NCBI GenBank assembly: GCA_020445205.1
Contig: JAGRHA010000154.1
Span: 1 to 32,140, forward strand
From: Gammaproteobacteria bacterium
GTDB taxonomy: Bacteria > Pseudomonadota > Gammaproteobacteria > Chromatiales > Chromatiaceae
DNA length: 32,140 nt
Reading direction: 5' to 3'
Position numbers and translations under genes: made by a program. How positions within the stretch are numbered: the first letter of the stretch is position 1; each line of letters starts with the position of its first letter. Below are positions 5,641 to 31,613 of this stretch, piece after piece. Below the pieces are notes generated by a model. It had not been told where the DNA came from, searched no databases, and saw only the letters and a list, made by a program, of their open reading frames with translations.

Positions 5641-6429
5641 ATGCGTTATCTCGCCTGTATCGTCTTGTTTTCCTGGGCCCTTGTCGTGGCCGCGGCCGAC
5701 ACCACCGCGACCCGCGAGCTGGAGGCGGCGTGGCGCGCGGCGGTCGACCTCGATGGCGAGGTGATCGCGTTGCAGGCGGGCGACGACACCGCCGTCGCGA
5801 TCCACCGTCGGCCGGCTGACAACGACAGCCTCGGCGGCGTCGTGCTGATCCACGGCCCGGGCACGAACGCCGACAGCCACGCCGTCGTGCGGCCGTTACG
5901 TATCGGCCTCGCGGACGCCGGCTGGGACACACTGTCGATCCAACTGCCCGCCGCCTATGACGACGCGACATCGGCCGACTGGCACGCACAGGCGCCGATG
6001 ATCGAGGCACGCCTCGGCGCGGCACTCGACTGGCTGCGTCAACGCGGCGTCGACCGGAGCGTCGCGATCGGTGTCGGCGAAAGCGGCCGCATCGCACTGC
6101 GCTTCGCCACATCACGCCCTGCCGATCAGCTCGTCGCCGTGATCATGGTCGGCAGTCCGGCGCGATTCGACAGCGACGAGGAGCGCGAAGCGCTGGGCGG
6201 CCTCGCGCGCCCACTGCTCGATCTATACGCCGAACGCGACCGTGCCGACGTTTTGGACAACCTGCAGCGACGCGCCACAGCCGTGCGCGACGCCAAACTC
6301 GAAGGCTATACACAACGCGCGGTCGCCGGCGCCACGGCGGACTTCCGCGGTCTCGACGACGCCCTGCTCGGCAGCGTGCGCGCGTGGCTGCAGAAGCATG
6401 CCGTCGCGACAGACGCCGCGAATCCTTAG
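5641..6429 (+). CDS. DUF3530 family exported alpha/beta-hydrolase-like protein
   Basis: The gene encodes 262 residues with an N-terminal signal peptide (hydrophobic segment at residues 3-18, probable cleavage near AAA-D). A GVVLIHGPG segment at about residues 66-74 and a GVGESG turn near residue 143 correspond to the oxyanion loop and nucleophile elbow of alpha/beta hydrolases. LAxAGWDTLSIQLP-type sequence between them is characteristic of DUF3530. The family has no established substrate; a periplasmic hydrolase is an inference. It starts divergently from rpe and is convergent with cynS. It ends with TAG, which shows that TAG is used as an ordinary stop codon in this genome. Confidence 0.8.
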   Translation: MRYLACIVLFSWALVVAAADTTATRELEAAWRAAVDLDGEVIALQAGDDTAVAIHRRPADNDSLGGVVLIHGPGTNADSHAVVRPLRIGLADAGWDTLSIQLPAAYDDATSADWHAQAPMIEARLGAALDWLRQRGVDRSVAIGVGESGRIALRFATSRPADQLVAVIMVGSPARFDSDEEREALGGLARPLLDLYAERDRADVLDNLQRRATAVRDAKLEGYTQRAVAGATADFRGLDDALLGSVRAWLQKHAVATDAANP

Positions 6430-6476
6430 CGCACCACGACCGTCAGCAGACGACGCGGCGCACCGGTCTGCACCGC

Positions 6477-6502
6477 GCTGGCGCATCACGCGGCACGCCA
6501 GC
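6477..6502. repeat. Inverted repeat between convergent DUF3530 and cynS genes
   Basis: Perfect 7-base arms, GCTGGCG (6477-6483) and CGCCAGC (6496-6502), enclose a 12-base loop. It lies between two convergent genes and could help end transcription, but no T-tract accompanies it on either strand. Confidence 0.3.
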
Positions 6503-6564
6503 CCCAGCTTGGCGCATGGTCACAGCGATTGCCCGTCCTGCCACCATCAGGCCATGCGCACGCC

Positions 6565-7005
6565 TTACCAGGATTTGTAAGGCAGAAACTTGCCGTTGAG
6601 CGTGATGACGACGCGGTCACCAGCGGGATTTTCCTGTTTGTCGATGTTCATGCTGAAGTCGATGGCCGACATGATGCCGTCACCGAACTTCTCATGGATG
6701 ATTTCCTTGATGGTCTCGCCGTAGACGCCGACGATTTCGTACAAGCGGTAGATCACCGGGTCGGTGGGCACGATCTGGTCCCACTTCTTGTTCGGGAACG
6801 CCTGCAGCGCGGCCGACACCGTGGCATCGAGATCGAGCGCGGCGACCAGGGCATCTGCGTTCACCTGATCGAGGTGGTTCATGCCCAGGCATGCCGACAC
6901 GACGTACTCTGGCGCCAGACCCGCCGCGGCGGCGATGGCCTCCCACGTCATGCCCTTGCCCTGCTTCGCAGCCAGGATGGCATCGCGCATTTCAGACTTC
7001 GTCAT
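6565..7005 (-). CDS. cynS: Cyanate hydratase (cyanase)
   Basis: Cyanase combines cyanate with bicarbonate to give carbamate, which decays to ammonia and CO2. It detoxifies cyanate and supplies nitrogen. The 146 residues include the N-terminal helical DNA-binding-like fold and the catalytic C-terminal dimerisation region. The triad residues known from the E. coli enzyme (Arg96, Glu99, Ser122) align with Arg87, Glu90 and Ser113 at a constant offset of nine, in YRLYE and IMSAIDF. The ATG at 7005 follows AGAGGAA. A sigma54-type -24/-12 element lies at 7060-7075, about 55 bases before the start, predicting nitrogen control. No carbonic anhydrase (cynT), cyanate transporter or cynR regulator is adjacent. 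In sulfur oxidisers cyanate can also arise from thiocyanate; no thiocyanate genes are seen here. Confidence 0.96.
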   Translation of the reverse strand: MTKSEMRDAILAAKQGKGMTWEAIAAAAGLAPEYVVSACLGMNHLDQVNADALVAALDLDATVSAALQAFPNKKWDQIVPTDPVIYRLYEIVGVYGETIKEIIHEKFGDGIMSAIDFSMNIDKQENPAGDRVVITLNGKFLPYKSW

Positions 7006-7059
7006 CACACTGTTTCCTCTTTGGTTGGATGTTCGCGGCGGGATCGCCGGCGACCACGA

Positions 7060-7075
7060 AGCAAGAGGAATGCCA
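7060..7075 (-). promoter_or_regulatory. Sigma54 (RpoN) promoter for cynS
   Basis: Read on the minus strand, the element is TGGCAT, five bases, TTGCT. The GG and GC are ten bases apart, as the sigma54 consensus requires (TGGCAY-N5-TTGCW). Transcription would start about 12 bases on, giving a leader of roughly 45 bases before the cynS ATG. Weak NtrC-like half-sites (CGCACC at 7121, TGCACC at 7147) lie upstream. Confidence 0.72.
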
Positions 7076-7188
7076 GGGAAAAGCAAGGCGCACGCCGACG
7101 CGGTTGCGGCGTCTTGATCACGCACCGTAGCGGAGCCGCGACCGCATGCACCGAAGGTGGGCTCGACGACCGGCCGGTGCCGCCGCGC

Positions 7189-7773
7189 TCAGCCACCGTC
7201 GACGCGAATGACGATACCTTTGAAGCCGTTGCCGGCGAGCTGCTGCCTTGCCTTGTCGAGCGCCGCGCGCCCGCGGTAAGGCCCGGTCCGCACGCGGTAG
7301 CGCAGATCCTGCGGGCCGATGCGCGCACTGACCACCTTGGCCTCGATCCCGAGCAGCGCGAGCTGCGCCTTGAGCCGGTCGGCGTCGGCGTCGCGTTTGA
7401 AGGATCCGACCTGCACCAGGTAGGTCGCCGAGTCGGCCTGCTTTGCTGCCTCAGGTGCCGAAGGACGCAGGTCGAGCTCCTCGTCGGGCACCACGACTTC
7501 CATCTCGGGCAGCATGTTGTAGAAATCGAAGCGCGGTTTGGGCGCAGGTGGAACCTCGACACGGCGCGGTGGCGCGGTCACGGGTTTGCCCTGTGGCGGT
7601 CGATCAGGCTGCGCCCCGACCCACTTGCCGCCGCTGTCGTCCGACTGCCCCTTGAGCCACGCCAGGCCGACGATCAACGCACCCAGCAACAGGCCGGCAA
7701 GCAGCCACAGCCAACCCGACACGGGCTTCTTCGTCGGTTTCTTCTGAGCACGGTGTTTGTAATCTCGAGGCAC
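7189..7773 (-). CDS. SPOR-domain membrane protein, FtsN-like
   Basis: This 194-residue bitopic protein has a basic cytoplasmic tail starting PRDYKHR, a single transmembrane helix at about residues 21-40, and a proline-rich periplasmic linker. A C-terminal SPOR domain follows at about residues 116-192 (YLVQVGSFKRDADADRLKAQL and RYRVRTGPY). SPOR domains bind denuded septal peptidoglycan, and the layout is that of FtsN, an activator of septal wall synthesis. Start: GTG at 7773, since the family begins just before RDY-type sequence; no strong Shine-Dalgarno is visible. It follows argS and priA, an order also found in pseudomonads, where hslVU comes next. Here cynS occupies that place. The ftsN symbol is plausible but not proven. 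Confidence 0.85.
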   Translation of the reverse strand: MPRDYKHRAQKKPTKKPVSGWLWLLAGLLLGALIVGLAWLKGQSDDSGGKWVGAQPDRPPQGKPVTAPPRRVEVPPAPKPRFDFYNMLPEMEVVVPDEELDLRPSAPEAAKQADSATYLVQVGSFKRDADADRLKAQLALLGIEAKVVSARIGPQDLRYRVRTGPYRGRAALDKARQQLAGNGFKGIVIRVDGG

Positions 7774-21114: not shown

Positions 21115-22413
21115 TCAGACGGCCGAGCCGCGCGAACCAGTGAACTCCGGATAGGCTTCCATGCCACATTCGGAAACGTCGGTACCTTCGTACTCTTCTT
21201 CCTCGCTGACGCGGATGCCCATGATGGCCTTGATGACGAGCCAGACGATGAAGCTGACACCGAACACCCAGGCGAAGATGGTGCCCGCACCGACCAGCTG
21301 GCCGACGAAGCTCGCATCACCATTGGTCAGCGGCACGGCCATGAGGCCCCAGAAACCGACCACACCGTGGACCGAGATCGCACCGACCGGGTCATCGATC
21401 TTCATCTTGTCGAGCGTGAGGATCGCGAACACGACGATGAAGCCACCGACAGCACCGATCAGCGTCGCAGCCAACGGCGACGGCGTCGACGGCTCGGCGG
21501 TGATCGCAACCAGACCAGCCAATGCACCGTTGAGGGCCATGGTCAGGTCGGCCTTGCCGAACAGCATGCGAGCCACGATCAGTGCCGTCACCAGGCCGCC
21601 GGCGGCCGCGGTATTGGTGTTGAGGAACACCATGGCGACCGAGTTGGCGTTGGCGATATCACCGAGCTTGAGCACCGAACCGCCGTTGAAGCCGAACCAG
21701 CCCATCCACAGGATGAACGTACCCAGCGTGGCGAGCGGCAGGTTGGCGCCCGGGATGGCGTTGACGCGACCGTCGGCGGTGTACTTGCCCTTGCGCGGGC
21801 CGAGCAGCAACACACCGGCGAGTGCGGCAGCCGCACCGGCCATATGCACGATGCCGGAACCGGCGAAGTCGGAGAAGCCGAAATCGTCGCCCAGGCTGTA
21901 CATGCCGAACACAGAGCCACCGCCCCAGGTCCAGTTGCCTTCCATCGGGTAGATGAAGCCGGTCATGACGACCGCGAACAGCAGGAAGGCCCACAGCTTC
22001 ATGCGCTCGGCAACGGCGCCCGAAACGATCGACATCGCCGTGGCGACAAACACCACCTGGAAGAAGAAGTCGGACGCGTCGGAGTAGACGGAGTCGCCGC
22101 CGAAACCGGCCTCAGCCGATTCCTTGAGCACCGTAGCCGTCAGCGCGTCGGCATTCTCGGCACCGTCCAGTGCGATGCTGGCCAGCAGGTAGTCACCGCC
22201 GTACATGATCGCGTAGCCGCAGACCAGGTACATGATGCACGCCACGGCATACAGCGCGACGTTCTTTGTCAGGATCTCGGTTGTGTTCTTGGCCCTTACG
22301 AGGCCTGATTCGAGCATGGCGAAACCAGCCGCCATCCACATGACCAGTGCGCCCATCACCAGGAAATAGAAGGTGTCGATGGCGTACTGGAGTTCGTAAA
22401 TGTTGTTTTCCAT
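21115..22413 (-). CDS. amtB: Ammonium transporter (Amt family)
   Basis: The inner-membrane trimeric channel takes up ammonium when it is scarce and is shut by GlnK. The 432 residues contain about eleven hydrophobic helices. The twin-histidine pore pair is seen in GIVHMAGA (near residue 188) and ISVHGVVG (near residue 347). The Phe-gate region, WGGGSVFGMYSLGDDFGFSDF and NTNTAAAGG segments are typical. There is no cleavable signal peptide; the first helix begins near residue 12, as in many Amt proteins. GGAGG precedes the ATG. The gene lies 17 bases after glnK and should share its transcript, driven by the predicted sigma54 promoter upstream of torF. Confidence 0.97.
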   Translation of the reverse strand: MENNIYELQYAIDTFYFLVMGALVMWMAAGFAMLESGLVRAKNTTEILTKNVALYAVACIMYLVCGYAIMYGGDYLLASIALDGAENADALTATVLKESAEAGFGGDSVYSDASDFFFQVVFVATAMSIVSGAVAERMKLWAFLLFAVVMTGFIYPMEGNWTWGGGSVFGMYSLGDDFGFSDFAGSGIVHMAGAAAALAGVLLLGPRKGKYTADGRVNAIPGANLPLATLGTFILWMGWFGFNGGSVLKLGDIANANSVAMVFLNTNTAAAGGLVTALIVARMLFGKADLTMALNGALAGLVAITAEPSTPSPLAATLIGAVGGFIVVFAILTLDKMKIDDPVGAISVHGVVGFWGLMAVPLTNGDASFVGQLVGAGTIFAWVFGVSFIVWLVIKAIMGIRVSEEEEYEGTDVSECGMEAYPEFTGSRGSAV

Positions 22414-22430
22414 TGAAAACCTCCAGGACT

Positions 22431-22769
22431 TTACAGGGCGTCCGGGCCGGACTCACCCGTACGGATACGGATCGCCTGACTCAGCTCGTAAACGAAAATC
22501 TTGCCGTCACCGATCTTGCCGGTCTTGGCCGCGGCACTGATCGCCTCGATCACGCGATCGAGCAGATCGTCGTCGATCGCGATCTCGACCTTGATCTTGG
22601 GCAGGAAATCGACGACGTATTCAGCGCCGCGATACAGTTCGGTGTGGCCTTTCTGACGACCGAAACCCTTGACCTCGATCACCGTGATGCCGGTGACACC
22701 GATCTCGGACAGGGCTTCGCGCACGTCATCGAGCTTGAAGGGCTTGATGATGGCTGCAACCAGTTTCAT
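22431..22769 (-). CDS. glnK: PII nitrogen-regulatory protein GlnK
   Basis: The trimeric PII protein senses 2-oxoglutarate, ATP and ADP, and blocks AmtB under ammonium excess. The 112 residues begin [17 protein letters not shown]. The T-loop holds Tyr51 in [10 protein letters not shown], the uridylylation site used by Gln[12 protein letters not shown] is the PII C-terminal signature. The coupling to amtB (17 bases apart) supports the name GlnK rather than GlnB. AAGGAG lies before the ATG, and a perfect 9-bp hairpin (22785-22808) sits directly upstream of that site, between torF and glnK. Confidence 0.97.
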
Positions 22770-22784
22770 GTGTACGTCTCCTTG

Positions 22785-22808
22785 GCCGCCCGCTCGGTTG
22801 CGGGCGGC
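22785..22808 (-). repeat. Perfect hairpin directly upstream of the glnK ribosome-binding site
   Basis: GCCGCCCGC (22785-22793) and GCGGGCGGC (22800-22808) pair perfectly around a 6-base loop. It lies 36 bases after the torF stop and touches the glnK AAGGAG site. No T-tract follows. It may stop 3' exonucleases or set the ratio of torF to glnK-amtB mRNA. Confidence 0.65.
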
Positions 22809-22844
22809 GTTACAGGGTTATCCAGTTAAGCGGGTGATACGGGT

Positions 22845-23543
22845 TTACAGCGACTTCGAAACCGTGAATGCCCACAGGTCGTCAACCAGCGCACCCGTTA
22901 CATCGCTGCTGGTGTCGCTGTAGGTCACAGCGAAATCGAGCCCCGAGTACGAGGTCGAGACACCCAGGCTGTAGTCTTCGTAATCCGCATCGGCGAGCCC
23001 CGTCTTCTCGGAGATACGGGTAACACCGTAGTGACCCGAGATCGTGAAGCTGCTGACCGGCACGTCGATGCTGAGGTCGTAGTACTGGCCTTTGCCGAAG
23101 TCGAAGAAGTCCGGGCTGTAGTACGCGGTGAAACCGGCGCTCATGAAGCCGAAGTCCTTCGATACGCCGACGTGGAATTCATCGGTGTCCGGATCGTTGC
23201 CCGGACCGGCAGCCGGGTGGCTGTCCGGATAGAAGTAGTGCAGGTAACCGACGTCGAGCGACACCGGGCCGACATCACCGCTCCAGCCCAGGTAGGTATC
23301 GATCTCGATGCTCGATCCCGAGAAGAAGTTGTCGTCGACGTTGGATGCCCAGACGCCGGCGTAAAGGCCGCTGTCGTGCGCGTAGTCGAAGCCACCCTGG
23401 ATCGCCCAGGAGTTATCGTTCTGCGAGACACCGCGGAAGATATAGTTGGAAGTCAGGGCGACATTGCCGCTGATTTCGGCCATAGCCGGGCCAGCGAGCA
23501 TCGTGCAAGCACCAATCGCCATTGCGAGTTTGTTGAGTTTCAT
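22845..23543 (-). CDS. TorF family putative outer-membrane porin
   Basis: The gene encodes 232 residues with a signal peptide (cleavage after AMA, residue 22). SGNVALTSNYIFRGVSQNDNSW is the signature opening of the TorF/gcw_chp family. The rest alternates aromatic and polar residues in short strands and ends in a Phe-containing strand (LWAFTVSKSL), as in outer-membrane beta barrels. The family is thought to form pores; substrate unknown. It is the first gene of a torF-glnK-amtB operon, whose position next to PII and AmtB suggests a role in nitrogen uptake across the outer membrane. The ATG at 23543 follows GGGGAGA. A sigma54 element lies at 23621-23636. Confidence 0.9.
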   Translation of the reverse strand: MKLNKLAMAIGACTMLAGPAMAEISGNVALTSNYIFRGVSQNDNSWAIQGGFDYAHDSGLYAGVWASNVDDNFFSGSSIEIDTYLGWSGDVGPVSLDVGYLHYFYPDSHPAAGPGNDPDTDEFHVGVSKDFGFMSAGFTAYYSPDFFDFGKGQYYDLSIDVPVSSFTISGHYGVTRISEKTGLADADYEDYSLGVSTSYSGLDFAVTYSDTSSDVTGALVDDLWAFTVSKSL

Positions 23544-23620
23544 ATGTAGCAATCTCCCCTACAGAGTCTGTGTATGCGTTTCGTGATCGCCCGACATGAG
23601 CGGCGATTGCTGTGATCGAT

Positions 23621-23636
23621 AGCAGATGCCATGCCA
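23621..23636 (-). promoter_or_regulatory. Sigma54 (RpoN) promoter for torF-glnK-amtB
   Basis: Minus-strand TGGCAT, five bases, CTGCT, with the invariant GG and GC ten bases apart. It differs from the consensus in one base of the -12 part. It lies about 80 bases before the torF ATG. The dependence of glnK-amtB on RpoN/NtrC in related bacteria is established knowledge and supports the call. Confidence 0.68.
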
Positions 23637-23700: not shown

Positions 23701-23759
23701 TGCACCAGTTCAGACCGCCAACTCCCACGTGCACCAATTTGACGCACCAAGGTTGTGCA
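23701..23759 (-). promoter_or_regulatory. NtrC-like enhancer sites
   Basis: Two overlapping 17-mers resemble the NtrC site TGCACC-N5-GGTGCA: TGCACCAATTTGACGCA at 23730-23746 and CGCACCAAGGTTGTGCA at 23743-23759. A third half-site TGCACCA lies at 23701-23707. They are 65-125 bases upstream of the sigma54 element, a normal enhancer distance. Confidence 0.58.
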
Positions 23760-31199: not shown

Positions 31200-31613
31200 A
31201 TGCTGCACCTGACGCGCGCCATCAGCATCGACGAAGCCGAGCTCGACTGGCAACCCGTGCGTGCGCAGGGCGCCGGCGGCCAGAACGTCAACAAGGTATC
31301 GTCGGCGATGCATCTGCGTTTCGACATCCGCCGCTCGACGCTGCCCGAGGCCATCAAGCAACGCCTGCTCACGCTGGCGGATCAACGCATCTCGTCGGAC
31401 GGCGTGCTCGTGATCAAGGCACAGCGTTTCCGCACGCAGGAGAAGAACCGGCGCGACGCACTCGATCGCCTGGCCGAGCTGGTCGAGCAAGCGAGCCGCG
31501 TGCGCAAACCACGCCGCGCGACGCGTCCGACCCGTTCCTCGCAACAGAAGCGCCTCGACAGCAAGAGCAAGCACGGTGCCACCAAGCGCCTGCGCGGGCG
31601 CGTCGATGACTGA
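31200..31613 (+). CDS. arfB: Ribosome rescue factor ArfB (codon-independent peptidyl-tRNA hydrolase)
   Basis: ArfB (YaeJ) releases nascent chains from ribosomes stalled on truncated mRNA, as a backup to trans-translation. The 137 residues carry the GGQ catalytic motif at residues 26-28 (AQGAGGQNVNKV), with the Gln that positions water. The C-terminal tail from about residue 103 is highly basic (RKPRRATRP, KRLDSKSKHGATKRLRGR); in the E. coli protein this tail enters the empty mRNA channel. The length matches the family. It follows the PQQ dehydrogenase gene closely. Full-length release factors are excluded by size. Confidence 0.95.
   Translation: MLHLTRAISIDEAELDWQPVRAQGAGGQNVNKVSSAMHLRFDIRRSTLPEAIKQRLLTLADQRISSDGVLVIKAQRFRTQEKNRRDALDRLAELVEQASRVRKPRRATRPTRSSQQKRLDSKSKHGATKRLRGRVDD

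Follow-up and report, generated by a model that had tools for sequence, protein, structure and literature searches.

The solitary cyanase gene cynS in the window (the whole stretch of 32,140 nucleotides of DNA that was analysed) is preceded by an exact -24/-12 element, which is very probably a real sigma-54 promoter. This reading is well supported because the element recurs at a like place before related cyanase genes and because one RpoN is encoded in the same genome. Gene and promoter lie together in a stretch that is absent from relatives, and the type of activator that accompanies cyanase genes in some of the nearest relatives has no close counterpart in the genome. The features at the centre of the argument are the following.

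7060..7075, minus strand: -24/-12 sigma-54 promoter element TGGCAT-N5-TTGCT, an exact pattern match, found again 50 to 100 bases ahead of cynS in relatives
6565..7005, minus strand: cynS, cyanase, 146 aa, ATG at 7005 (TIGR00673 and PRK02866 above cut-off; nine-way alignment with a common start)
7010..7020, minus strand: ribosome-binding site region AAAGAGGAAAC, read from the sequence

The cynS product is a true, full-length cyanase, scoring 166 bits over the whole length of TIGR00673, for which NCBIfam gives a curated cut-off of 113.3. Its start at 7005 is backed by an alignment in which nine cyanases from relatives share the first methionine, and an AGAGGA ribosome site also supports this ATG. 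Because the nine relatives align from a common first methionine, the element can be placed outside the coding region. The preliminary description of this DNA had reported TGGCAT-N5-TTGCT with GG-N10-GC spacing about 55 bases upstream of cynS, and we can confirm this: TGGCATTCCTCTTGCT at 7075-7060 on the minus strand has its GG and GC exactly 10 bases apart, agrees with the TGGCAY and TTGCW boxes and is separated from the ATG by 54 bases. The same description called cynS solitary and without cynT and cynR, which holds for its surroundings. Next to cynS the window has no gene for a LysR regulator, a carbonic anhydrase or a transporter, and no cynT or cynR, and hence no operon of the cynTSX/CynR type, was recognised in it; beta-carbonic anhydrase genes are present elsewhere in the genome (three matches).

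Could such an element arise by chance? The genome is rich in G+C and exact matches are also found inside genes. For example, the second exact match in the window (31566-31581, minus strand) lies antisense inside an ArfB-like gene and is probably a chance occurrence. The loose consensus pattern is no commoner in the window than expected (29 matches, 26.7 in shuffles). Since loose matches are as frequent in shuffled DNA, a single sequence is in itself no proof of a promoter, and the argument has to draw on exactness, position and comparison. As to exactness, pattern counts over the 4.3 Mb genome gave 26 matches to TGGCAYN5TTGCW on both strands, from which we calculate about 0.0005 chance matches (about 5 in 10,000) for the 183-base intergenic stretch upstream of cynS. 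Other exact elements in this genome precede a NifE-like gene and flagellin (both named from sequence only), as expected for RpoN. A sigma-70-like promoter was not found near cynS.

For the comparison, cyanase genes were gathered from relatives, named genomes, the family and the class, and elements were scored with weights that follow what is generally known of the consensus and were not fitted to the genus of the window. The first set comprised 92 regions upstream of cynS, including a few duplicates. In 22 of these regions an element reached a score of 13 or more out of 16.7; shuffles gave 2.9 such regions on average and 5 at most, and the opposite strand gave 1. A second set held 123 distinct, non-identical cyanase regions reaching 400 bases. 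Here 20 strong elements (score 14 or more) fall within the 51 positions from -100 to -50 and only 3 within the other 333 positions. The DNA around the element is otherwise unrelated among the element-bearing genes. The letter match of the element in selected rows is partly due to their selection, and we counted as evidence its frequency, its position, the shuffles and the opposite strand instead. With this positional enrichment across 123 genes the position of the element before cynS is unlikely to be fortuitous, and we consider a chance match very improbable.

Element-bearing cynS genes are found in G045, G006, the uncultured L097, L108 and L100, and in Thiohalocapsa and Thiomicrorhabdus relatives. 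As to conservation in relatives, to which the preliminary description looked, the element recurs at a like position, but two of the five cynS genes of the closest clade (L095 and L096) are without it. Because at least 15 gains or losses are needed over the cyanase tree (23.9 for shuffled labels), the element has been gained and lost often.

The surroundings of cynS give an indication of how the gene reached its present place.

6430..7188, no strand: stretch with cynS and its promoter; relatives lack it between their SPOR and DUF3530 genes (order argS-SPOR-DUF3530 without cynS)
7189..7773, minus strand: SPOR-domain protein gene, upstream, flank of the inserted stretch (Pfam SPOR; TIGR02223 below cut-off)
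5641..6429, plus strand: DUF3530 gene, convergent, other flank (Pfam PF12048)

In relatives argS and SPOR are followed by a convergent DUF3530 gene, usually within 80 bases, and cynS is absent there in 9 of 9 genomes (in two of these the listing masks the DUF3530 frame by a longer opposite frame). Since cynS and its promoter occupy a gap of 759 bases which is absent from the relatives and which contains the gene and its leader, they probably came in as one unit. By tree path, the cyanases closest to that of the window belong to G045, which has a transporter cluster, and L097, which has none. The assembly of the window falls into one family with genomes whose cynS loci agree at every position with named records of Thiohalocapsa and Candidatus Thiodiazotropha, which probably places it among the purple sulfur bacteria and their symbiont relatives. 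Repeats were sought at the ends of the insertion as the mark of a mobile element. This was rejected, as the only direct repeat is weak, 14 bases long and has both copies inside the stretch (6551-6564 and 7083-7096).

The insertion also bears on whether cynS needs a promoter of its own. The gene might be transcribed by read-through from argS-SPOR upstream, with the element as a relic, given that the SPOR gene and cynS lie on the same strand 183 bases apart with just one weak terminator-like hairpin between them. Yet cynS was probably inserted with its own leader, the element is still exact, and relatives in other settings keep it at an equal distance, so that we regard read-through as improbable.

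How are the related cyanase genes controlled? At the loci L017, L019, L099 and L102, from G006, G045 and Thiohalocapsa, cynS and an ABC transporter operon are divergently arranged. In G006 and G045 a gene for a GAF-AAA-Fis activator similar to CynF and NifA comes after this operon; in the Thiohalocapsa loci the transporter part is seen, and no activator lies within the stretch compared. Half-sites of the form GACAA/TTGTC precede the element in most cluster-type cynS promoters (p below 0.05 for 6 of the 10 copies). The window gene is closely related (82% identical to that of G045) and has the same element at the same distance, but it neither faces a transporter operon nor has such half-sites: no GACAA palindromes or repeats were found between the element and the upstream gene, and no NifA-type sites (TGT-N10-ACA) before cynS. 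A cynFABDS-type cluster, with a CynABD-like transporter and a CynF-like activator linked to cynS, is likewise absent from the window. The genome as a whole has no close relative of the CynF-like activator, the best being 38% identical and encoded on contig C151, which also bears the NifE-like gene; at an assembly completeness of about 91% this absence could be an assembly gap. Nor does it have a close relative of the substrate-binding protein, the one transporter component that was sought genome-wide.

Several other observations were made around cyanase loci. An OsmC-like gene recurs beside cynS in Thiomicrorhabdus and relatives, divergent from it (L114, L130, L131, L137, L143), and is also found after the CynF-like activator in G045 (L019:595-1140); it may belong to the cyanate cluster. 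One genome from the same genus, which is 99% complete (G008:C67; L087, L091), encodes the ABC transporter and CynF-like activator but lacks cynS, and this cluster may serve another substrate or may have lost its cyanase. In G003:C43 the gene of the substrate-binding protein matches in two frames (L020:570-1755), about 5 kb from a cynS that is also without a -24/-12 element. The split gene suggests a decaying cluster. Furthermore, a fused PP2C phosphatase/protein kinase gene recurs beside cynS (L097:191-1930, L100:4474-6210 and L023:5166-6902; tested against Pfam in L097), joined in L100 and L023 by a formate/nitrite-type channel gene, named from sequence only.

We suggest that the element works as the sigma-54 (RpoN) promoter of a transcript that holds cynS alone. 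Sigma-54 RNA polymerase would bind the -24/-12 element and start transcription about 45 bases before the ATG, and firing would require the action of an enhancer-binding ATPase from an upstream position. We hold such a mechanism with an upstream activator, whichever protein this may be, to be likely. The question is then which activator is involved. Two sequences in the window resemble binding sites of NtrC.

7121..7137, minus strand: weak NtrC-like site GGCTCCGCTACGGTGCG, centred some 79 bases upstream of where transcription presumably starts, score 8.9 of 12
7147..7163, minus strand: second weak NtrC-like site AGCCCACCTTCGGTGCA, in the same orientation and 26 bases upstream of the first, centre about 105 bases before the start, score 8.9 of 12

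These half-sites are located where enhancers should be, and the same genome encodes a true NtrC (677 bits, cut-off 558.6). Taken singly they are weak, with the best p at 0.03-0.11 and a value of 0.11 over 260 bases that is not significant; the pair reaches p 0.0025 over the 113 bases of the intergenic stretch or 0.0135 over 260 bases. A further NtrC-like palindrome, TGCACCGCGCTGGCGCA at 6469-6485, lies inside the inserted stretch downstream of cynS and is probably due to chance. Among other solitary copies, L100 and L128 carry the near-perfect NtrC operators TGCTCCATAGTGGTGCA and TGCACTTTATTAGTGCA upstream of cynS, which score 11.1 of 12 and are equalled in none of 500 shuffles, the -24 box of L128 being imperfect (TGGCCT). 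One ABC-cluster copy, L224, also has an NtrC-like site. The literature offered no direct case of NtrC control of cyanase. NtrC is our first choice as the activator of the window cynS, but because the window sites are weak and the solitary copies L108 and L196 carry the element with no NtrC-like site found upstream, we see the chances for and against it as nearly balanced. Should NtrC, as the most likely activator, work through the two half-site-like sequences (some 80 and 105 bases ahead of the start), a shortage of nitrogen would switch on cyanase production, and cyanate would serve as a source of ammonia. The preliminary description had proposed RpoN nitrogen control of cynS. Its sigma-54 part is upheld by the recurrence of the element and the presence of rpoN, while nitrogen control through NtrC is only suggested, given two weak sites and about 24 possible activators.

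Indeed, the sigma-54 promoter might be fired by one of the other roughly 23 activators, for instance one responsive to cyanate or sulfur, in which case the signal would be cyanate itself, for detoxification, rather than nitrogen shortage. The genome encodes about 24 proteins that have a strong sigma-54 activator domain, the cluster-type cynS genes have a GAF-type activator of their own, and in Pseudomonas CynF is needed for induction by cyanate (PMC6627978), all of which, like the weakness of the NtrC sites, speaks for such a protein. However, the genome has no close CynF relative, GACAA repeats and NifA-type sites are absent before the window gene, and two other solitary copies do carry NtrC operators. 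We therefore rate an activator other than NtrC as a real possibility but a less probable one than NtrC itself. For nitrogen control in the source organism the window itself offers a good positive control: an apparent operon (21115-23549, minus strand), made up of genes for a TorF-type porin, glnK and an AmtB-type ammonium transporter, is preceded by a -24/-12 element at 23621-23636 and strong NtrC-like sites, one at 23743-23759. With TGCACAACCTTGGTGCG and TGGCATGGCATCTGCT this promoter has the look of a good NtrC promoter.

Our proposal for the origin of the window gene is that one small insertion brought in cynS along with its promoter. The nearest relatives would suggest as source a cynS facing an ABC transporter operon that ends in its own CynF/NifA-like activator, and in the window this activator and its sites appear to be missing. 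This leads to the tentative and rather unlikely hypothesis that cyanase genes travel as small cassettes with a sigma-54 core promoter and, once away from the CynF-like activator, are rewired to NtrC by new upstream sites, so that the core is kept while enhancer and signal are exchanged, from the sensing of cyanate to that of nitrogen shortage. Detached and cluster-linked copies share one core promoter and differ in their enhancer sites, which makes activator exchange at sigma-54 promoters directly testable. Since cyanate can poison a cell as well as supply it with nitrogen, the switching signal would show what role cyanase has in these sulfur-oxidising relatives.

In E. coli, cynS belongs to the cynTSX operon with a carbonic anhydrase and is controlled by the LysR regulator CynR. 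The window gene encodes an enzyme of the same family but has neither regulator nor carbonic anhydrase nearby. The contrast with E. coli drawn in the preliminary description is fair, but sigma-54 control of cyanase is already known from Pseudomonas (PMC6627978) and has been predicted widely across Proteobacteria (PMC12316311). The window adds a solid but modest further example, in a gene detached from its usual activator and transporter, and a possible exchange of activator in detached copies is the sole point at which a specialist would be surprised. A study of rpoN in Bradyrhizobium has cynS among the genes whose expression was reduced (PMC13207237). The passage on cyanate lyase (COG1513) in a 2025 cross-phylum survey predicts sigma-54 control, enriched in alpha- and gammaproteobacteria (PMC12316311). 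This is the same kind of prediction as ours, made genome-wide, and activators and detached cynS copies fall outside that passage's treatment. The closest parallel is cynABDS of Pseudomonas pseudoalcaligenes CECT5344, which is induced by cyanate, repressed by ammonium, dependent on the sigma-54-dependent CynF and preceded by a putative sigma-54 promoter before cynA (PMC6627978). Both systems would express cyanase from a sigma-54-type promoter, with a sigma-54-dependent Fis-family activator and ammonium repression known for Pseudomonas and a predicted promoter alone for the window (PMC6627978). In Pseudomonas, however, cynS is the last gene of cynABDS, the promoter lies before cynA and CynF is encoded next door (PMC6627978), whereas the window cynS, near which neither CynF nor CynABD was found, stands alone with a promoter of its own.
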